From positions 224,023-288,022 of the forward strand of contig JAFUAY010000012.1 in assembly GCA_017460515.1 (NCBI GenBank): a stretch of 64,000 nucleotides of DNA. Reading direction: 5' to 3'. The notes under the pieces are model-generated. The model was not told where the DNA came from, did no database searches, and saw nothing but the letters and a program-made list of their open reading frames with translations. The stretch comes from Prevotella sp. (GTDB lineage Bacteria > Bacteroidota > Bacteroidia > Bacteroidales > Bacteroidaceae). Positions 25,200 through 59,184 of this stretch are shown here, piece by piece. The position numbers were made by a program, and so were the translations under genes. Position 1 is the first letter of the stretch; every line of letters starts with the position of its first letter.

Positions 25200-25256
25200 A
25201 ATAATAAATAAAAATTATGAAAAGCGATACGCTGAAGCACTCAAAGCGAAGTCAAA

Positions 25257-25398
25257 GGACGCTTGGAGTGAAAGCCAAGAACGCTTGAAGTAAAAGCCAA
25301 GAACGCTAGGAGCGAAAGCCAAGAACGCTAGGTGCAAAGCATAGGAACGCTCATAGCATTTGACTGAAACGCTCCAAGCGTTTGACTGAAACGCTTAC
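25257..25398. repeat. 22-bp tandem repeat array, about 6.5 units
   Basis: Six units of exactly 22 bp begin at 25257, 25279, 25301, 25323, 25345 and 25367, with a partial unit at 25389. Each opens with the heptamer GAACGCT or a one-base variant, and the first three end in AAAGCCAA. A weak extra copy precedes the array (25235). The array fills the gap between the ileS promoter and the terminator of the barrel-protein gene. The plus strand holds a 23-codon frame (25217-25288) through its start. Confidence 0.85.
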
Positions 25399-35491: not shown

Positions 35492-36445
35492 CTATTCACT
35501 CTTGAACAGATCCTTGATACCTCCGATGCTACCCATCAGGTTCGTAGCCTCGTATGGCAGATAGACGGTCTTCGTCTTATCGCCGGTAGCCAGTTCCTGA
35601 AGCATCTGGATGTACTTCTGAGCCAGGAGGTAGTTGGCAGGATTGCTGCTCTTACCTACAGCTTGCGTAATCAGTTCGATAGCCTTTGCCTCAGCCTCAG
35701 CCTTGCGGATACGAGCTTGAGCCTCACCTTCAGCAGTCAAGATAGCCTGCTGCTTGGCAGCCTCAGCACGGTTGATAACGGCAGTCTTTTCACCCTCAGA
35801 AGCCAGAATCTCTGCAGCCTTCTCACCTTCTGAAGTCAGAATCTGTGCACGCTTGTTACGCTCTGCCTGCATCTGCTTCTCCATAGCAGTAAGTACTGAT
35901 GACGGAGGAGTGATATCCTGCAACTCTACGCGGTTCACCTTCACACCCCACTTATCTGTTGCTTCGTCCAGCACCAGTCGCAGTTTGTTGTTGATAGTGT
36001 CACGCGAAGTCAGCGTCTCGTCAAGTTCCAACTCACCGATGATGTTACGCAGTGTGGTCTGCGTCAGCTTCTCAATAGCATTGGGCAAGTTGTTGATTTC
36101 GTAAGCAGCCTTGTAGGGGTCTACAATCTGGAAGTAGAGCAGCGCATTGATCTCCATCTGGATATTGTCCTTCGTGATCACGTTCTGCGAGGGGAAATCA
36201 TACACCTGTTCACGCAGGTCGATAGTAGAAGAATAGGAGTAGCGTCCATGATTGAGCACCACGATATTCTTGGCATTGTCGATGAACGGGAAAATCCAGT
36301 TCAGACCTGCCTTCATAGTGTACCTGTACTCTCCCAGTCGCTCAATGATTCTGGTCTCTGACTGTGGAACAATCACCAAAGACTTTTTCACAATGACTAC
36401 GGCCAATACCGCCAGAAAAATAAATAAATAGATTGTAAAATCCAT
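35492..36445 (-). CDS. SPFH/band-7 (stomatin-like) protein
   Basis: The 317-residue protein has one N-terminal membrane helix (about 3-22), an SPFH domain (about 25-200; SETRIIERLGEYRYTMKAGLNW) and an Ala/Glu-rich coiled coil (EGEKAAEILASEGEKTAVI). Stomatin-like proteins form large membrane rings and are usually paired with NfeD, as here (36 nt upstream). The pair is thought to organise membrane domains or assist proteolysis. Confidence 0.93.
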   Translation of the reverse strand: MDFTIYLFIFLAVLAVVIVKKSLVIVPQSETRIIERLGEYRYTMKAGLNWIFPFIDNAKNIVVLNHGRYSYSSTIDLREQVYDFPSQNVITKDNIQMEINALLYFQIVDPYKAAYEINNLPNAIEKLTQTTLRNIIGELELDETLTSRDTINNKLRLVLDEATDKWGVKVNRVELQDITPPSSVLTAMEKQMQAERNKRAQILTSEGEKAAEILASEGEKTAVINRAEAAKQQAILTAEGEAQARIRKAEAEAKAIELITQAVGKSSNPANYLLAQKYIQMLQELATGDKTKTVYLPYEATNLMGSIGGIKDLFKSE

Positions 36446-36481: not shown

Positions 36482-36931
36482 TTAACTGTCTAATTGTACG
36501 GTTAGGATGGTGCTCTCGCGTCCTATGACGGTAACACGTGTGCCCACAGGAATCTCAGAATCATCGGAAGCTACTGCTTTCCAGCGGTCGCCGTCGATAG
36601 CCACATAGCCAGATCCCTTTTCCTGGATAGTCTCAGTCACACGTCCCTTGCGACCTATCAGCGCATCAGCATTACTCACACGCTTGGGAGCTTTCCCCTT
36701 CAAATAGCGTAGAGCGAAGGGGCGCAACTGCCACAGACAGAACAACGAGACCACGGTAAACACACCCAGTTGCCAGTAGATATTGGCGAAAGGTGCCGTT
36801 ATCGCAGATCCTGCCGCGCCGATGGCAAGACACATGATGAAGAAATCGCCTGAAGTCAACTCAAGTATCAGGCCCAAGACGGCTAATACAGCCCACAGTT
36901 GCCACATATTGGCTACAAGATACTCTATCAT
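36482..36931 (-). CDS. NfeD-like membrane protein
   Basis: The 149-residue protein has three hydrophobic segments and a C-terminal OB-fold domain (about 85-149; IGRKGRVTETIQEKGSGYVAI, IPVGTRVTVIGRES). This short NfeD form lacks the ClpP-like protease domain. It is the first gene of the nfeD-SPFH pair. Confidence 0.9.
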   Translation of the reverse strand: MIEYLVANMWQLWAVLAVLGLILELTSGDFFIMCLAIGAAGSAITAPFANIYWQLGVFTVVSLFCLWQLRPFALRYLKGKAPKRVSNADALIGRKGRVTETIQEKGSGYVAIDGDRWKAVASDDSEIPVGTRVTVIGRESTILTVQLDS

Positions 36932-37007: not shown

Positions 37008-37673
37008 TTATAAAGACATGAGGAAATCGTCCCACTCCTTGGCAGATCCTTTCTTTCCAAACACCTTCTGATACAGTCGGCTTCTGCTGGTCGACACACT
37101 CTCCTTTGAATGAGCCGTCAGCGAGGCGATATCTTTCGGCAAGACATGAATCTTCACCAGCAGACAGACGCGATAGTCATTTACCGACAGCTTATAAAGG
37201 CTGTACAACTTCTCCGTAAAACCCGAATAGATACCATCTACGAGCAAAGCCAGTTGTTGCCAGTCTTCCTCGCCCATCGTGCGCCCCTCATTCAACAGTC
37301 GCTGTATCTTCAGATAGATATCTGAACTGAAGATGTCGCCCTCTGCCCGTTCGCGTTTCTCATTGTCAATCCTGGCCATTGTGTTAGCGTAGTCAAGCTT
37401 TGCCTTTTTCTCTTCCAGCTCCAAACGAAGCATCGAGTTCTCAGATCCCAGTTTCGAGATGAGTCGTTCCAGTTCCTCTATCTTCTGACGATTGCTCTCC
37501 ACATCGGCCACCTCCTGCATCGCGCGTACCTTATCTAATCGTTCCTGCAGCAATAGCACCTTGCGGCGGCTGTTCTGCCAAGTCACGACGAACAGGGCTA
37601 TATAGGTCACTGCACCTATTATTAAGAGGAACAGTTCGCGTTGGGTTAAGATGGTCATCAATTGGTTCATCAT
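37008..37673 (-). CDS. Membrane-anchored HTH regulator (paralogue 1)
   Basis: The 221-residue protein starts at MMNQLMTILTQRE; I chose ATG 37673 because the promoter lies just upstream (37695-37726). It has one membrane helix (about 14-32), a coiled coil (about 35-105) and a C-terminal domain (about 165-221). That domain, YRVCLLVKIHVLPKDIASL through SRLYQKVFGKKG to EWDDFLMSL, matches the end of the protein at 37968-38990 and looks like a LuxR-type HTH. There is almost no periplasmic part. It is divergent from its paralogue, and TGCAAA/TGCGAA hexamers stand upstream of its -33. I infer a membrane-tethered transcription factor. Confidence 0.78.
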   Translation of the reverse strand: MMNQLMTILTQRELFLLIIGAVTYIALFVVTWQNSRRKVLLLQERLDKVRAMQEVADVESNRQKIEELERLISKLGSENSMLRLELEEKKAKLDYANTMARIDNEKRERAEGDIFSSDIYLKIQRLLNEGRTMGEEDWQQLALLVDGIYSGFTEKLYSLYKLSVNDYRVCLLVKIHVLPKDIASLTAHSKESVSTSRSRLYQKVFGKKGSAKEWDDFLMSL

Positions 37674-37694: not shown

Positions 37695-37726
37695 CAAAAT
37701 TACATGAAAAAAGCGAACTATCCAAA
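37695..37726 (-). promoter_or_regulatory. Promoter of membrane-anchored regulator 1
   Basis: On the minus strand TTTG (37726-37723), 20 nt, TAATTTTG (37702-37695) is a full match, and the ATG follows 21 nt later. Confidence 0.8.
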
Positions 37727-37734
37727 CTTTTTCG

Positions 37735-37779
37735 TTTGCAATAATTCGCAATTCCCTTTTCAGTTTGCAAAAGTTCGCA
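37735..37779 (-). promoter_or_regulatory. Putative operator: two TGCGAA-N4-TGCAAA pairs
   Basis: Read on the minus strand, hexamers TGCGAA (37779-37774), TGCAAA (37769-37764), TGCGAA (37750-37745) and TGCAAA (37740-37735) form two pairs with 10-bp repeat spacing. The promoter-proximal hexamer ends 9 nt before the -33 TTG of regulator 1, the same distance as at the 39045 promoter. Confidence 0.6.
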
Positions 37780-37794
37780 ATCGGGCGGAAAACC

Positions 37795-37904
37795 CTATTG
37801 ATTACGAGTCATAACTCTATTGATTACGAGTCGTAACTCTATTGATTGCAAGTCGTAACTCTATTGATTGCAAGTCGTAACTCTATTGATTGCAAACAAA
37901 ATGC
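37795..37904. repeat. 22-bp tandem repeat between divergent regulator genes (about 5 units)
   Basis: Units begin at 37795, 37817, 37839, 37861 and 37883. The core is CTATTGATT then ACGAGTC or GCAAGTC, then TAACT. Units 3-5 carry TGCAAG/TGCAAA at 37847, 37869 and 37891, which continues at 37902, so all share one 11-bp helical phase. The fifth unit diverges into the palindrome at 37893-37939. Confidence 0.88.
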
Positions 37905-37939
37905 AAAGCGGCAGATGAACGCACTTTGCATTTTGTTTG
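37893..37939. promoter_or_regulatory. Large palindrome at the promoter of regulator 2
   Basis: A perfect 16-bp inverted repeat (CAAACAAAATGCAAAG at 37893-37908, complement at 37924-37939) has a 15-nt centre. The right arm ends 1 nt before the -7 box, so the palindrome covers where the -33 element should be. Each arm holds one TGCAAA. This looks like a protein-binding site on DNA; it lies upstream of the transcript and is not an RNA hairpin. Confidence 0.7.
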
Positions 37940-37940
37940 T

Positions 37941-37948
37941 TACCTTTG
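37941..37948 (+). promoter_or_regulatory. Promoter of regulator 2, -7 box
   Basis: TACCTTTG stands 19 nt before the ATG at 37968. The -33 position (around 37918) reads GAAC rather than TTG, which suggests dependence on an activator. Confidence 0.65.
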
Positions 37949-37967
37949 CCGGAAAAATCGAACAGCA

Positions 37968-38990
37968 ATGAAACAAGTACTCGTATTGATGGCTGCATGT
38001 CTGTTGGTTGGATGCAGCAATGGCAATGACAGCGACAAGCAGTTCACGCTCGACGGGGTGTGGACACTGCGGCAGATGGATTATCCTGCTGGAGGCAACA
38101 AGGTGATTGAGGAAACGAAGGAAACGCTTCTCCGGCTGTATGAGGGCGACAGCATCTTTCACCAATGCTGGATGACCAAAACAAAGACGGGACTGACCAT
38201 CAGACCCATTGAAGATGTTCAGGTGAGTGTAGTTGCCAAAGGGCATGGTGAGTATGTCTATATAGAAGATGACAATCCACATCCTTTGACAGTGAAAGGC
38301 GATTCTGCCATTGTTATCCAGCAAGACGGCATCCTCTATACATGGCACAGCAACGAGGATATCGCAAACGAATGGAGCGAAGAAATCAGGGAGATTGTGG
38401 CCGTAGAATTACAAAAAGGTCAAGGGAAACGACAAAGTTATATGCTTTCGCGCAAAGAACGAGAACAGGCCAATGTGATACTTGGGCTCGTCTTCTCTAC
38501 CATCGGTGTCGTCGTTTTGCTATTGCTTATAGCCAGAATTGCCATCGACTATCGTAAGGAGAAACGCCGACTGCAACTGCAACTACAGCAGATTCAGGAG
38601 GTGCAGCAGGAGCGTCCGAAGGCTGTCAGGCAAGCCATTGAGTCGATAGAAACTGCCTATTTTGCGTCTGACGAATATCAGTCCCTGCAACGCCGAATCG
38701 CCACTGGGGATATATTGAAGGATGATGACTGGAATAACATAGAGAGCCAGATTCGCAAGGTGTATCCCGGCTTCTGTAGCCAACTGCGAAATCTCCACGC
38801 AATGTCTGAACTGGAATACCAAGTATGCCTGCTCATCAAACTCAGGGTTGCTCCATCGGACATAGCCGTTGTGTTGGCCCGCGACGCCAGCACCATTAGT
38901 ACCGTTCGTAGCCGACTCTATAAAAAGGTATTCAACCAGAAAGGAGGTGCCAGGGAATGGGACGAGTTCATCCTTTCCATAGGCGCTTAA
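37968..38990 (+). CDS. Lipoprotein-type transmembrane regulator with lipocalin-like sensor and HTH (paralogue 2)
   Basis: The 340-residue protein begins MKQVLVLMAACLLVGCSNG, a lipobox with Cys16. A beta-rich lipocalin-like region follows (about 25-140; LDGVWTLRQMDYP), then a membrane helix (about 172-194), a Gln-rich coiled coil (about 200-225) and a C-terminal HTH-like domain (about 284-340) shared with the minus-strand neighbour. The start fits a -7 box 19 nt upstream. The outside domain resembles the secreted proteins encoded at 39124 and 39777, so it may sense the same ligand. A lipobox followed by a transmembrane helix is an unusual topology. Confidence 0.78.
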   Translation: MKQVLVLMAACLLVGCSNGNDSDKQFTLDGVWTLRQMDYPAGGNKVIEETKETLLRLYEGDSIFHQCWMTKTKTGLTIRPIEDVQVSVVAKGHGEYVYIEDDNPHPLTVKGDSAIVIQQDGILYTWHSNEDIANEWSEEIREIVAVELQKGQGKRQSYMLSRKEREQANVILGLVFSTIGVVVLLLLIARIAIDYRKEKRRLQLQLQQIQEVQQERPKAVRQAIESIETAYFASDEYQSLQRRIATGDILKDDDWNNIESQIRKVYPGFCSQLRNLHAMSELEYQVCLLIKLRVAPSDIAVVLARDASTISTVRSRLYKKVFNQKGGAREWDEFILSIGA

Positions 38991-38996
38991 ACGGCA

Positions 38997-39035
38997 TGCA
39001 AACACTTTGCAAACACACTGCAAACTGAATGCAAA
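38997..39035 (+). promoter_or_regulatory. Putative operator: four TGCAAA hexamers at exact 11-bp spacing
   Basis: TGCAAA occurs at 38997, 39008, 39019 and 39030, all in one orientation and on one face of the helix. The last copy ends 9 nt before the -33 TTG of the next promoter, a position typical of an activator that contacts RNA polymerase. Confidence 0.7.
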
Positions 39036-39044
39036 GTAAAAAAC

Positions 39045-39075
39045 TTGACAGAAAGGCGGAAAGGATGTACTTTTG
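39045..39075 (+). promoter_or_regulatory. Promoter of the secreted lipocalin-like gene
   Basis: TTG (39045-39047), 20 nt, TACTTTTG (39068-39075) is a full -33/-7 match. The leader is about 45 nt. Confidence 0.8.
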
Positions 39076-39123: not shown

Positions 39124-39618
39124 ATGAAAAAAGCAATGTTTGTAATGGCATTGGCACTTATCGGAGCCTTGCAGGTAAACGCACAAACCGGAAAAATGGA
39201 TGACAAGGAAATCATCGGCACCTGGATCATGGAGTCCATGCAGTGGGAAGGTGAAAAGAAAACAATGTGTGGTAAAGAGAGCGGCTATAGCCAGTTCAAG
39301 TACTATGGTGCAGATGGCGAGTATGCCTGCGCTGAATTAGCACTAACCAAAGAGGGAAAGGTGGTAGTGATGCCCCATGAGTATGGAACCTATTCACTCA
39401 AGGATGGATGGTACTCTGAGATGGGACGCGAACCCATCAAGGATGCCATCGTCTGGGTTGACAAGACCACGACGAAGGGCACGTGGATGAAACGACATGA
39501 CATCTGGAAGAAAGTCACCCTTCCCGACAAGGTGGTAAAGTACATTATGGACTGCTGCAAGACAAAAAACACGCCTGCCGACGTCCAGCTGCTTATCAAG
39601 CAGAACTTGTTCAAATAG
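39124..39618 (+). CDS. Secreted lipocalin-like (DUF4488-type) protein
   Basis: The 164-residue protein has a signal peptide (MKKAMFVMALALIGALQVNA). A single lipocalin-like domain follows, opening with IIGTWIMESMQWEGEKKTM and continuing with SQFKYYGADGEYACAEL. Three further Cys (CGKE, CAEL, CCKT) may form disulfides. Ligand unknown. It has its own strong promoter preceded by the TGCAAA array, and the neighbouring regulator has a similar periplasmic domain, so the two may respond to a common signal. Confidence 0.78.
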   Translation: MKKAMFVMALALIGALQVNAQTGKMDDKEIIGTWIMESMQWEGEKKTMCGKESGYSQFKYYGADGEYACAELALTKEGKVVVMPHEYGTYSLKDGWYSEMGREPIKDAIVWVDKTTTKGTWMKRHDIWKKVTLPDKVVKYIMDCCKTKNTPADVQLLIKQNLFK

Positions 39619-39776: not shown

Positions 39777-41297
39777 TTACTCCCCGAATTCCTTTTTGAG
39801 CGGACTGTCGGCGGACTGCTTCTTGAAGAAGTCTGCATCCAGTTCCTTAATCTGCTGCCACATCTTTTGAGCACTCTCTTTATTGCCATCCAGAAGATAG
39901 CAGTTGCCGCGACAATTCAGTAGGAGAGGCTTGTTCTTCTGTGTCAATTCCGGAGCCATCAGCGTGAGGAAGTCCAGATACAGGAGGGTGCGCTCTGAGC
40001 CCATAATATCGTAGCCCAACTGATAGGCCGTGAAATTACAGAAGTACAGCATATTGATATACTGTTCAGCACTTCCCAGGCTACGGTATCGCTCCACCTC
40101 GCTTTCCACCACAGCTATCTTATCCTCCAGCATCTTCTTGCCTTTCTTCTTGTCACCGCTGCGATAAGTGGCTAAAGAATGGAACACTTCTGTCAGATTG
40201 ACGTGGAGGCGAGAGAACATATTGTGTTCATGTCCGTTGTTGACATAGTCACTGATTTTCCGGAGCTGCTGTTCACAGAAGTTCTTGCACTCCTTGTATT
40301 GATGTTTGTTGACATACAGATGAGTAGCAATACCCACCATTCCTTCACAAAGTGTCTGGATATTAACCTCCTTCTCACTGATAGCTTCCGTAATGAGTTG
40401 GTCAGCCTTCTTCATATTTCCGTTAAAGGCTGCCTCGACAGCTTCACGCATACAGTCAACTCCGTTCCTGAACGTTTCTATATCAGTATTGAACACGCGC
40501 TGCCAACTTTTAGGAAGTCCTCCCCTAACCCATATTTCCGTCAGCTGCTGACCGTTTTCCTGAACGAAGGTGAGTGCATGGGTGTCGTTGTTAAGCCAAT
40601 GGATATTACAGGGATGGCCTATCTCATAGATGGTACTGTCATTCTCATACCTGACAGTCTTCGTAGGATTACATCCCAAGAACTTTCCGTTATTGGCAAC
40701 ATTGACCACCATCGACAAGTCGGGACCATAGGCTTTCCAAATCGTAGGCACCTGCATTCTCTTTCCCGTTCCGTCAGGATCAGCGGTAGCAGCTACGCGA
40801 ACCCACCAGCCGCAGAACTTGTTGGCCTTGGCATTCATCTTATTCTCAAACAGTTCAAAGGCTTTCACTACCTCGTCTTCCATCCAGTTCTGCGAATATA
40901 CTTCGGTGATAAACTCATTGAGATTACTCATGTTTGGCCATCGATCGTTGTACCACTTGAAACAGAACTGGCTGTCCGTCACGTTGAAAATCTGCGTACC
41001 GTGTCCGTCATCGCCCTGTGGTGTCTCTCCTGTATAGACAAGAGGATAAGGCTCGCGAATCTCTACCTGCATATTGCTCCATTGGGTAACACTCCTTGAT
41101 GCCCTGTAGGAGACGAGCAGTCCCACGGTATCTGCAGCATATTTATACTGGCTGAATCCTGGGGATGATGTACGTCCATCCTCATAAATAAAAGACTTCA
41201 GGCGATACAGCCCCTTCGGTCTCTTCTCACTTTGCGCATGAATCATCAGAGTGGTCATCAGCGCCACCATTGACAACAGACAGAATTTCTTTATCAT
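39777..41297 (-). CDS. Secreted lipocalin-like protein with helical repeat C-terminus
   Basis: The 506-residue protein has a signal peptide (MIKKFCLLSMVALMTTLMIHA). Two lipocalin-like domains appear in series: the first (about 25-140) with KGLYRLKSFIYEDG and FSQYKYAADTVGLL, the second (about 150-275) with KFCGWWVRVAATADPDG. A C-terminal helical, TPR-like region (about 285-500) follows. The first domain resembles the protein encoded at 39124. No own promoter is visible in the 51-nt gap to the DMT gene, so it may be the third gene of a truA operon. Ligand and partners are unknown. Confidence 0.75.
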   Translation of the reverse strand: MIKKFCLLSMVALMTTLMIHAQSEKRPKGLYRLKSFIYEDGRTSSPGFSQYKYAADTVGLLVSYRASRSVTQWSNMQVEIREPYPLVYTGETPQGDDGHGTQIFNVTDSQFCFKWYNDRWPNMSNLNEFITEVYSQNWMEDEVVKAFELFENKMNAKANKFCGWWVRVAATADPDGTGKRMQVPTIWKAYGPDLSMVVNVANNGKFLGCNPTKTVRYENDSTIYEIGHPCNIHWLNNDTHALTFVQENGQQLTEIWVRGGLPKSWQRVFNTDIETFRNGVDCMREAVEAAFNGNMKKADQLITEAISEKEVNIQTLCEGMVGIATHLYVNKHQYKECKNFCEQQLRKISDYVNNGHEHNMFSRLHVNLTEVFHSLATYRSGDKKKGKKMLEDKIAVVESEVERYRSLGSAEQYINMLYFCNFTAYQLGYDIMGSERTLLYLDFLTLMAPELTQKNKPLLLNCRGNCYLLDGNKESAQKMWQQIKELDADFFKKQSADSPLKKEFGE

Positions 41298-57377: not shown

Positions 57378-57443
57378 TATTCCCAGTATGGGAATATAAT
57401 GCTCCCATGATGGGAATGTTATGTTCCCAATGTGGGAATATAA
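57378..57443. repeat. Three palindromes TCCCA-N3-TGGGA at exact 22-bp spacing
   Basis: Inverted repeats centred at 57387, 57409 and 57431 sit in three tandem 22-bp units that also share AAT-rich linkers. This lies in the gap of about 480 nt between the kinase stop (57274) and the vapE-like gene. The rest of the gap holds the 12-bp repeats (57485-57587) and a promoter. Confidence 0.85.
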
Positions 57444-57484: not shown

Positions 57485-57587
57485 ATCTCTCCCGTCAACC
57501 CCGCGAAAGTCCTTTATTTAAAAGGGATTTGGACATTTCATCTCTCCCGTTATCTCTCCCGTTATCTCTCCCTTGATCTCTCCCATC
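57485..57587. repeat. Left 12-bp repeat cluster (ATCTCTCCCGTY)
   Basis: One unit at 57485-57496 is followed, after 43 nt, by four tandem 12-mers at 57540-57587 (ATCTCTCCCGTT twice, then two variants). The cluster is the mirror image of the right cluster at 59060-59184. Confidence 0.85.
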
Positions 57588-57669
57588 TTCTTTACCTTAC
57601 TAAAGTTTCGGTTGTGAACAAAAAAATGCAATTAAGAATTGAAAAACATGATTTTTTGGGGGAAAACAC

Positions 57670-57754: not shown

Positions 57755-59026
57755 ATGAAGGAGAATGATCTTTTGCCTGTAGAGCCTCCAGGAGGCTCTC
57801 AGGAAGGAGCGCTTGTCATCGAGCAGTTCCTTATGGCGAACTACCGTTTCCGTCGAAACATTCTGAACGGAAAGGTTGAGTTTGCGGTTCTGCCTAAGGC
57901 TGACAATAAGGCTGAAGGCAATACTGTCGAATCGTTCGACAGTCTCTCGTGCGCCTCGGATGAGGCAGATTTGAATTACCGTCCGCTGACACCTGCAGCA
58001 CTGAACAGCATCATCATTCGTGCAAAGCGCGAACAGGTGTTGGAGAAAGGCAGCCCCAAGACGGAGATAACGGAGTATGTGCAATCGGAGGAGGTACCTG
58101 AGCATAATCCTGTGCAGCAGTTTCTCAAAAGCCTGCCAGTATGGGATGGACAGAACCATATAGCTAAGGTCTTCGGACGTCTGCCAGGCATCACCTCCGA
58201 GCAGCTGAACTATCTCACCATTTGGCTACGCTCGTCTGCGGCCCATTGGTTGCAGATGGACATGCTGCACGGAAACGAGTGTGTACCCACATTCATCGGA
58301 GCTCAGGGTTGCGGCAAGACCACCTTTGTGCGTCGATTGTTGCCTGAGAATTTGCGAGAGTATTATCTGGACCACCTGAACCTGTCGAATAAGTTCGACA
58401 AGGAGATGGCGCTTACCAATAATCTCTTCGTCAACCTCGACGAGTTGGATGCCATCCGTCCTTCGCAGCAGTCGTCGCTGAAGCAGACCTTGTCTGTCAG
58501 CAAGGTGAATGGTCGTCCCATCTTTGGACGCACTCAGGAGGACCGCCCACGATTTGCGTCGTTCGTGGCCACCACCAACAACCGCCATCCGCTGAAGGAT
58601 GTCACAGGTTCACGTCGAAACATCTGCATTCTGATACCAGATGGTCAGCTCATCGACAATACGGGCGACATCGACTATGGCCAGCTTTATGCCCAGGTGG
58701 TTTATGAGCTTCAGCAGCAGAAGGCGCCCTATTGGTTCAACAATGACGAAGTGGCCCGTATTCAGCAGCTGAATCAGGACTTCATGGAGAAAAAGGACCT
58801 TGCTGAAATCTTTACAGCCTGTTTCCGCCAACCACATGAAGGCGAGGTGGTGAAGACGATGAATTGCGACCAGATAATGGTCATCATGCAGAAAAACTAT
58901 CCTACGCTGGAGAACACCATTGGCAATAGGGTCCGTCTGGGCAAGACCATTTCTGCTATGGGATTCGAGCACAAGGAGCACTCGCACGTGGCTTATTACA
59001 AAGTGGTACCACTTCGAGCAGCGTGA
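57755..59026 (+). CDS. VapE/VirE-type P-loop ATPase with DUF3874
   Basis: The 423-residue protein has a short N-terminal region (about 1-110) and a VapE-type superfamily-3-like ATPase core (about 115-330). Walker A is GAQGCGKTTF and Walker B is LFVNLDELDA, followed by FVATTNNRHPLKD with a sensor-like Asn and GSRRN. A DUF3874 C-terminal segment ends it (about 355-423). Relatives are phage- or island-type helicases usually joined to a primase domain; none is fused here. It sits between mirror-image 12-bp repeat clusters and before a DUF6078 gene, and no integrase is near. Role in replication of an element is inference. Confidence 0.85.
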   Translation: MKENDLLPVEPPGGSQEGALVIEQFLMANYRFRRNILNGKVEFAVLPKADNKAEGNTVESFDSLSCASDEADLNYRPLTPAALNSIIIRAKREQVLEKGSPKTEITEYVQSEEVPEHNPVQQFLKSLPVWDGQNHIAKVFGRLPGITSEQLNYLTIWLRSSAAHWLQMDMLHGNECVPTFIGAQGCGKTTFVRRLLPENLREYYLDHLNLSNKFDKEMALTNNLFVNLDELDAIRPSQQSSLKQTLSVSKVNGRPIFGRTQEDRPRFASFVATTNNRHPLKDVTGSRRNICILIPDGQLIDNTGDIDYGQLYAQVVYELQQQKAPYWFNNDEVARIQQLNQDFMEKKDLAEIFTACFRQPHEGEVVKTMNCDQIMVIMQKNYPTLENTIGNRVRLGKTISAMGFEHKEHSHVAYYKVVPLRAA

Positions 59027-59059: not shown

Positions 59060-59184
59060 GACGGGAGTGATGACGGGAGAGATGACGGGAGTGATGACGG
59101 GAGAGATCAAGGGAGAGATTAAGAGCATCTCTCCCCCACTCCAGCCCTTTGTACAAAGGCTTTCCGTAAGATGACGGGAGAGAT
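59060..59184. repeat. Right 12-bp repeat cluster (GACGGGAGWGAT)
   Basis: Five tandem 12-mers at 59060-59119 alternate GACGGGAGTGAT and GACGGGAGAGAT, ending in CAAGGGAGAGAT. One more unit lies at 59173-59184. In between stand an inverted copy, which pairs with the fifth unit (GGGAGAGAT/ATCTCTCCC), and the palindrome CTTTGTACAAAG (about 59148-59159). Confidence 0.85.

Follow-up and report, generated by a model that had tools for sequence, protein, structure and literature searches.

Why do hexamers of one kind stand about one helical turn apart before three promoters of a single locus, and which protein reads them? The question is raised by a stretch of 64,000 nucleotides (nt) from Prevotella sp. 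(assembly GCA_017460515.1, contig JAFUAY010000012.1, positions 224,023 to 288,022 of the forward strand), here called the window, whose own coordinates are used throughout; it belongs to a draft genome of 2.27 Mb that is 65% complete. Two regulator genes are divergent neighbours in it, one on the plus strand for a protein of 340 amino acids (aa) (37968..38990, the class-A regulator) and one on the minus strand for a protein of 220 aa (37008..37670, the class-B regulator), and the class-A gene is followed by a gene for a secreted protein of 164 aa (39124..39618, plus strand, the target gene). The initial annotation had assigned all three promoters to one activator bound cooperatively to one face of the DNA. 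The comparisons presented here make it probable (roughly 0.74), from sequence evidence, that the window holds two back-to-back, separate autoregulatory modules, each with a membrane-anchored GerE-like regulator, probably an activator, and an operator coded by its spacing.

Phased hexamers and promoter geometry

Promoter elements were judged against the Bacteroidetes consensus, which has TAnnTTTG near -7 and TTTG near -33 (PMC7366714). Upstream of the target gene, four TGCAAA hexamers (38997, 39008, 39019, and 39030; 38997..39035, plus strand) follow each other in exact steps of 11 base pairs (bp), ahead of the promoter at 39045..39075 (TTG at 39045-39047, TACTTTTG at 39068-39075). The predicted operator of the class-A regulator (37891..37907, plus strand) reads TGCAAACAAAATGCAAA and contains two TGCAAA, at 37891 and 37902, again 11 bp apart; its -7 box, TACCTTTG, lies at 37941..37948, 33 nt past the last hexamer, and there is no TTG at -33. 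On the minus strand, the predicted class-B operator (37735..37779) is made of two TGCGAA/TGCAAA pairs (37735-37750 and 37764-37779), with 10 bp within a pair and 19 bp between pairs, and the class-B promoter (37695..37725) has its TTG at 37725-37723 and TAATTTTG at 37702-37695, with 9 and 32 nt, respectively, separating them from the last hexamer. All hexamer coordinates of the initial annotation proved correct when the sequence was read again, and so did its observation that the last hexamer ends 9 nt before the TTG at 39045 (plus strand) and 37725 (minus strand). The gap of about 10 nt that it had given for the third promoter corresponds to a hexamer-to--7 distance of 33 nt there, against 32 nt at the other two.

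Two extra TGCAAG hexamers stand in phase, 22 bp apart, upstream of the class-A operator (37847 and 37869; 37847..37874, plus strand), inside a 22-bp tandem repeat of 4.8 copies (37791..37895). The second unit of this repeat contains the palindrome TTACGAgTCGTAA, and the first two units read TTACGAG instead of TTGCAAG and thus lack the hexamer. The hexamers at 37847, 37869, and 37891, 22 bp apart, are in phase with the operator but cannot be counted as independent hits, and we have rejected these steps as separate evidence given their minisatellite origin; the units at 37791-37890 may well have been made by slippage.

The pattern of four TGCAAA at 11-bp steps, searched with up to two mismatches, had one match in the window and none in 100 shuffles. 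Pairs with a 10-bp step (TGCRAAN4TGCRAA) were found twice, compared to a shuffle mean of 0.05, and those with an 11-bp step (TGCRAAN5TGCRAA) four times, compared to a chance mean of 0.13, all of them confined to the regulator region. Taken alone, the hexamer shows no enrichment in the window (126 TGCRAR against 173 expected); the order resides in the spacing. Control DNA of 280 kb (20 stretches from 20 genomes of the genus) contained no TGCRAA pair at 10 or 11 bp. The triple TGCRAR array is confined to this locus in the genome as a whole, in which 11 TGCAAA pairs with an 11-bp step were counted, eight of them in just two loci, the window and a paralogous locus on contig 27.

Orthologues of the class-A regulator were collected from 149 relatives, from one scan of genome contigs, and from 398 genomes of the genus, in 46 of which class A is present at E 1e-60 or better. 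The relatives are draft genomes, genes at all loci are mechanically defined open reading frames (ORFs), and genome counts treat relatives as independent, except for the 50%-identity cluster count given below for paralogue repeats. The search of the 398 genomes listed 50 class-A matches, from which the best 30 were taken as loci; two of the other 20 were already covered by the collections from the relatives and contigs, and 18 of the 50 lie outside the studied set. After removal of duplicates (L100-L103, and L090, which shares a contig with L008) there were 34 distinct loci, 47-77% identical to the window protein and biased towards closer orthologues; another locus, L014 (31% identical), was viewed and stands outside this count. 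The phasing on which the initial annotation had staked its proposal is conserved in the orthologous promoters: runs of two or more hexamers exactly 11 bp apart precede the regulator in 31 of the 34 orthologues, often as TGCAAACAAAATGCAAA, and such runs, of 2-6 hexamers, precede the next gene in 28. The 71 neighbour spacings in these downstream regions comprise 54 of 11 bp, eight of 22, three of 33, and one each of 44 and 23, with four longer than 150. Every downstream region that holds any hexamer (32/32) has one exactly 32 nt from TAnnTTTG, followed by TTG 9 nt past it in 31 of the 32. At base 4 the class-A hexamers carry A 173 times and G three times, so that the class-A word is TGCAAA. In L106 (genome G263), where 2.4 kb separate regulator and target gene, the array sits beside the latter, and a class-A orthologue from another family in the order (L169) has four hexamers at 11 bp before CTTG.

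The same alignments bear on the idea that the arrays are neutral tandem repeats generated by slippage. Minisatellites of 22 bp do occur in the genome, one of them overlapping the class-A operator, and some triple TGCAAA arrays found elsewhere in the relatives are plain 11-bp repeats. However, the hexamers are more conserved than what separates them (1.87 bits for the penultimate hexamer of the downstream arrays against 0.99 for its 5-nt spacer, and 1.12 against 0.37 for the third hexamer and its spacer; the 2.00 bits of the last one are given by the construction of the alignment), and the exact geometry is kept at 47-77% protein identity. On this conservation and the empty controls we reject neutral repeats as the source of the 10- and 11-bp arrays at these promoters, an explanation to which we give practically no weight. 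A leader RNA element was also rejected, as the arrays lie upstream of the -33 of the gene that they serve.

Spacing follows regulator class

The class-B regulator is a shorter protein, with an N-terminal transmembrane helix, a coiled region, and a C-terminal helix-turn-helix (HTH) of the class-A family (39% identical over a match at residues 219-338 of class A), and it has no large extracytoplasmic domain. Its 10-19-10 pattern recurs in class-B promoters, where a 10-bp step accounts for 37 of 73 neighbour spacings and the hexamers are a mix of TGCAAA and TGCGAA. In the 28 class-B rows compared (26 distinct loci), TTG stands at 9 nt in 25 and the -7 element at 32 nt in 24; there was no class-B motif match at L028. 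In the locus lists, L023/L165, L018/L132, and L020/L146 are each a single locus. A class-B subtype of 170 aa has inverted pairs instead.

We scanned 299 genomes with the pattern TGCRAAN{2,10}TGCRAAN9TTGG and obtained 89 sites, 35 with a 4-nt gap (10-bp step), 35 with a 5-nt gap (11-bp step), and 19 spread across seven other gaps. The two steps separate by regulator class: 27 of the 35 sites with a 5-nt gap lie within 4 kb of a class-A gene, versus one of the 35 with a 4-nt gap, and this single site is the window itself. Among the sites examined, a class-B gene follows 11 of 12 with a 4-nt gap, and class A or its target follows 10 of 13 with a 5-nt gap. Moreover, four of the eight class-A genomes in the 149-relative set have no typical class-B match (G034, G050, G051, and G059, the last with short HTH frames of unclear class), and class B is found without a class-A match in several genomes (e.g., G007, G013, or G062).

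That one regulator, either A or B, reads all three promoters, in line with the single activator of the initial annotation, would make the 10- and 11-bp steps interchangeable, as about one turn each. Both classes indeed use the same hexamer and the same 9/32-nt geometry, and their genes are divergent neighbours in the window. Still, each class holds its own spacing in genomes that have no typical match to the other, hardly any 10-bp site is found near class A, and the class-A word is almost invariably TGCAAA while class B mixes TGCAAA and TGCGAA. Because each class keeps its spacing where the typical other one is missing, the 10-bp and 11-bp modules appear separable, and a single activator is unlikely. 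What holds from the initial annotation is the phased sites on one face, their fixed place in the promoter, and their service to both a regulator and the next gene for a secreted protein; what is not supported is one activator for all three promoters. Some cross-talk between the modules may occur through the common hexamer.

In the two-module reading, the class-B regulator would bind the TGCRAA pairs that stand in 10-bp steps before the operon headed by its own gene. The next gene encodes an NfeD-family membrane protein (36482..36931, minus strand; PF01957, E 4.9e-16), and the third gene of the presumed operon a stomatin-type SPFH/Band 7 protein (35492..36445, minus strand; PF01145, E 2.2e-38). 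An NfeD-like ORF comes next in 27 of 27 class-B rows (25 distinct loci, with L024 and L028 outside this list), as judged by eye and Pfam-tested in the window copy. If this reading is right, the module links a regulator of this kind to an NfeD/SPFH membrane operon, and given these neighbours our guess is that class B responds to the state of the membrane.

The target gene is similarly tied to class A. It was found in 39 of the 299 genomes, 38 of which have class A, and all 38 class-A genomes of this set have the target gene (presence lists were compared by eye); the remaining genome, G032, holds a 113-aa fragment. Being adjacent and co-occurring, the target is a candidate partner of the regulator. 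Its description as lipocalin-like by the initial annotation was not confirmed: the protein has no Pfam match, its match to TIGR03066 (E 4.4e-5) reaches 23.6 bits against a cut-off of 93.25, and a profile comparison of the class-A sensor with the target (hhalign) gave a probability of 1.2% and E 0.045. That the class-A signal is a small ligand is a guess which leans on the unproven lipocalin idea. Convergent with the target gene, the minus strand encodes a secreted protein of 506 aa (39777-41297) that has weak TPR matches only.

Regulator fold and mode of action

The class-A regulator has a lipobox (LVGC, aa 13-16), a transmembrane helix at about aa 170-188, a coiled region, and a C-terminal HTH at about aa 279-322, and its N-terminal domain is presumed to be periplasmic. 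By hydropathy, all 34 class-A proteins have at least one hydrophobic stretch after aa 60. A loose lipobox pattern, run without a control set, matched 26 of these 34 and 63 of 75 other paralogues of at least 300 aa, and this lipobox-like start in most regulators suggests that their N terminus lies outside the membrane. Class A therefore combines in one chain a DNA-binding domain, assigned by homology, and at least one transmembrane helix, which is the combination that defines a transmembrane transcription regulator. A lipid-anchored N terminus together with a transmembrane helix ahead of a cytoplasmic-type HTH would be an odd combination for a regulator; a lipobox-like start and such a helix often occur together in class A and among the paralogues (L148-L167 and L224-L275).

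No Pfam or NCBIfam family scored above its cut-off for the window regulators, and neither a winged HTH (Trans_reg_C) nor a receiver domain had a Pfam match in the window proteins or the HTH tails. The family is common in Prevotella, with a member at E 1e-12 or better in 55 of 90 genomes of the genus, and a profile built from 14 HTH tails (A2) picked up members in 50 of 119 genomes at the order level, one of which is the genome of the window. Two order-level relatives (E 1.1e-11 and 3.0e-11) have tails that pass the Pfam GerE cut-off of 23.5 bits, with 36.4 and 31.1 bits (E 4e-9 and 1.8e-7). We call the HTH GerE-like because of these relatives, that is, by transitive homology. The C-terminal parts of class B (E 0.00056, 18.7 bits) and class A (E 0.011, 14.5 bits) also match the BT3442 family (NCBIfam NF053779) weakly, the cut-off being 940; the literature presents BT_3442 as a TPR protein with several domains whose gene shares a putative operon with a MACPF gene (PMC2954219).

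Several observations weigh against the reading as two GerE-like modules. Regarding the fold, the Pfam scan gave no direct match to GerE (PF00196) in the window proteins or in any of the 14 HTH tails, and the best matches in PDB were insignificant (DosC, E 0.47; EvgA, 0.52; PdeL, 1.1), although EvgA and PdeL are proteins that we take to carry GerE-type HTHs. Three of five order-level tails stay under the GerE cut-off (22.9, 19.7, and 16.4 bits), and all five also score, short of the respective cut-off, with the related HTH of sigma-70 region 4, two of them higher than with GerE. GerE domains usually act as dimers on inverted sites, and tiling of direct repeats is unusual for this fold. Regarding the operators, three of the 34 class-A orthologues lack an upstream 11-bp pair, and six downstream regions lack an exact one, two of them free of hexamers (L013 and L106) and four with hexamers but no 11-bp pair (L012, L092, L094, and L117). 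In L013 the target gene begins 29 nt after the regulator and may for that reason be read from the regulator promoter, in an operon. Finally, three exact TGCAAA at 11 bp were matched 24 times in the 149 genomes, eight times at class-A genes and 16 times elsewhere, with no gene of the regulator family in the approximately 3 kb examined at those 16, and three of the 13 examined 5-nt-gap sites have no link to class A. The link between array and regulator is strong only once the distance to -33 is required.

These stray arrays, 16 of 24 strict triples and three of 13 5-nt-gap sites, are what would be expected if an unlinked DNA-binding protein, such as a nucleoid protein, bound the repeats. We consider this improbable, since the promoter-placed sites track the regulator genes across genomes with a spacing specific to each class, and the same arrangement, built from different words, is seen again next to further paralogues (see below).

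With two cognate regulators preferred, the mechanism can be sketched for class A as follows. An extracytoplasmic sensor would act through a single membrane helix on the cytoplasmic C-terminal GerE-like HTH, which would bind TGCAAA in tandem and cooperatively, with each 11-bp turn taking up one subunit on a single face of the DNA. The regulator would act at its own promoter, which mostly has two hexamers and a poor -33 and so is likely dependent on class A, and before the next gene, where the promoter has 2-6 hexamers and a good -33 and the product is a small secreted protein.

A promoter-proximal site placed as here is typical of class-II activators. As the proximal hexamer is fixed with respect to -33 and -7, and the self-driven promoter has a poor -33, we infer activation rather than repression from the promoter geometry, and for class A signal-driven activation with positive feedback seems most likely. 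Autoregulators are often repressors, and a protein on the class-A sites, so shortly before -33, could get in the way of the polymerase, so that the arrays might be operators of autorepressors relieved by a signal. This is unlikely, as in the alignment of target promoters the proximal hexamer leaves 9 nt free before -33, and among class-A regulator promoters that keep the 32-nt hexamer-to--7 distance only three of 20 have TTG at -33, as expected if an activator replaces the -33 contacts.

Direct repeats in phase with the helix are known from other regulators. In the OmpR/PhoB family, ArcA and PhoB use two to five direct-repeat elements, mostly 11 bp from centre to centre and some 22 bp (PMC3798270); the operators are alike, but ArcA is a phosphorylated response regulator, whereas the regulators described here have a transmembrane helix and a GerE-linked HTH, with no receiver or winged HTH found. 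SARP activators (OtcR and relatives) bind direct repeats 11 bp apart on one helix face (PMC4393881). They differ in that their domain is OmpR-like, they belong to Streptomyces, and their 5' repeat overlaps -35 with the 3' repeat 8 bp upstream of -10, while in the window the last hexamer ends 9 nt before -33. The 11-bp operators hence show a way of working like that of OmpR/PhoB or SARP proteins, and not membership in either. An HTH of LuxR type is found in the activator MilO, which has three imperfect direct repeats, every one of which matters for binding (PMC11784345); in MilO, however, the repeats are of 11 bp with 2-nt spacers (13-bp steps by our count), the site is 142 bp upstream of the start, and the available portion of the report mentions no membrane anchor. 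As for the anchor, transmembrane transcription regulators and the ToxR/ToxS and VtrA/VtrC co-component systems also have a membrane-anchored DNA-binding protein, in several cases with a lipocalin-like partner (PMC10269533, PMC9214523). In the VtrA/VtrC type the HTH is described as N-terminal and cytoplasmic in the DNA-binding chain (PMC9214523), in contrast to the C-terminal HTH behind an N-terminal lipobox found here, and the window partner gene is adjacent and co-occurring, its lipocalin fold being unconfirmed. Phased direct repeats are known for OmpR/PhoB and SARP proteins; here they accompany a GerE-like membrane-anchored family, for which the open-licence literature searched describes no operator.

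Paralogues and tandem repeats in the genus

Beyond class A, 77 further paralogue loci were selected from the match lists of the genus, eight of which had fewer than 60 nt before the next gene. A direct repeat, defined as at least seven identical bases at an exact lag of 11 bp in the DNA that separates the stop of the regulator from the next gene, was present in 22 of the 69 usable regions, where shuffles predict 1.4, and in six of 128 control intergenic regions (106 from the 20 genus stretches and 22 from the window), a difference with a Fisher p of 4.6e-7 when relatedness is disregarded. The neighbouring lags of 9, 10, and 12 gave eight, five, and five of 69. Counted by 50%-identity clusters, 18 of 51 have the 11-bp repeat and 33 lack it by this strict test. 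Upstream of the same regulators it was seen in six of 75, little excess over the controls, so autoregulation is not shown to be family-wide by these regions. At the order level the excess is slight, with lag 11 in four of 28 regions (the class-A orthologue L169 included) and lag 10 in three.

The repeated words differ among paralogues (TTTGTGAACTT, TGGTAAATTCT, GGTGAAATNNN, TTGCGTACNCN, TGCACACTNTT, AATGCAAACTN). On this basis we find it slightly better than an even bet that membrane regulators forming a large family in Bacteroidales (with an N-terminal lipobox, a sensor of TPR or other type, one transmembrane helix, and a C-terminal GerE-like HTH) share one cis-code, namely a regulator-specific direct repeat in 11-bp steps shortly upstream of the -33 before the next gene, so that operator word and target could be read from the genome and both step length (10 or 11 bp) and word would separate paralogues. 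This proposal rests on statistics and lies outside the original finding. The HTH and the operator word co-vary only weakly (Mantel r 0.155 over 21 entries, three of them in one 50% cluster, with 215 of 5000 permutations as high), which also weighs against the reading of the window given above, even though L031 and class A, whose HTH tails are 38% identical, share TGCAAAC. Before the next gene of L032, L273, L160, and L246 there are inverted or degenerate repeats rather than clear direct ones, and for this reason the code is not uniform in the family. If the proposal is true, operators and direct targets of many orphan regulators would be predictable from sequence, and related regulators that use one hexamer at different steps would allow spacing to be tested cleanly as a code for specificity.

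Tandem repeats of other kinds were also noticed. Plain 11-bp repeats containing TGCAAA occur away from regulators in three genomes, G071, G015, and G030 (L072, L081, L075, L076, and L085). Besides the repeat at 37791-37895, 22-bp tandem repeats are present in the window at 25255-25340, 25346-25395, and 57381-57443, and in controls (L278, L280, L286, L288, L293, and others). Over 344 kb, a period of 22 bp and, less so, of 21 bp stands out among periods of 15-40 (20 and 11 of 50 output rows, some of which overlap). The 22-bp units are unrelated in sequence, and several hold palindromes (TTACGAgTCGTAA, TTCCCAnnnTGGGAA, AACGCTccaAGCGTT); they may represent a genus-wide kind of minisatellite. Tandem repeats of 41, 23, and 22 nt have been reported from Porphyromonas gingivalis (PMC4596501). 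The window also contains two 12-bp tandem repeats in opposite orientation, at 57538-57598 and 59060-59119 (ATCTCTCCCGTT / GACGGGAGAGAT). They flank an ORF of 423 aa (57755-59026), which may encode a VapE-type P-loop protein.

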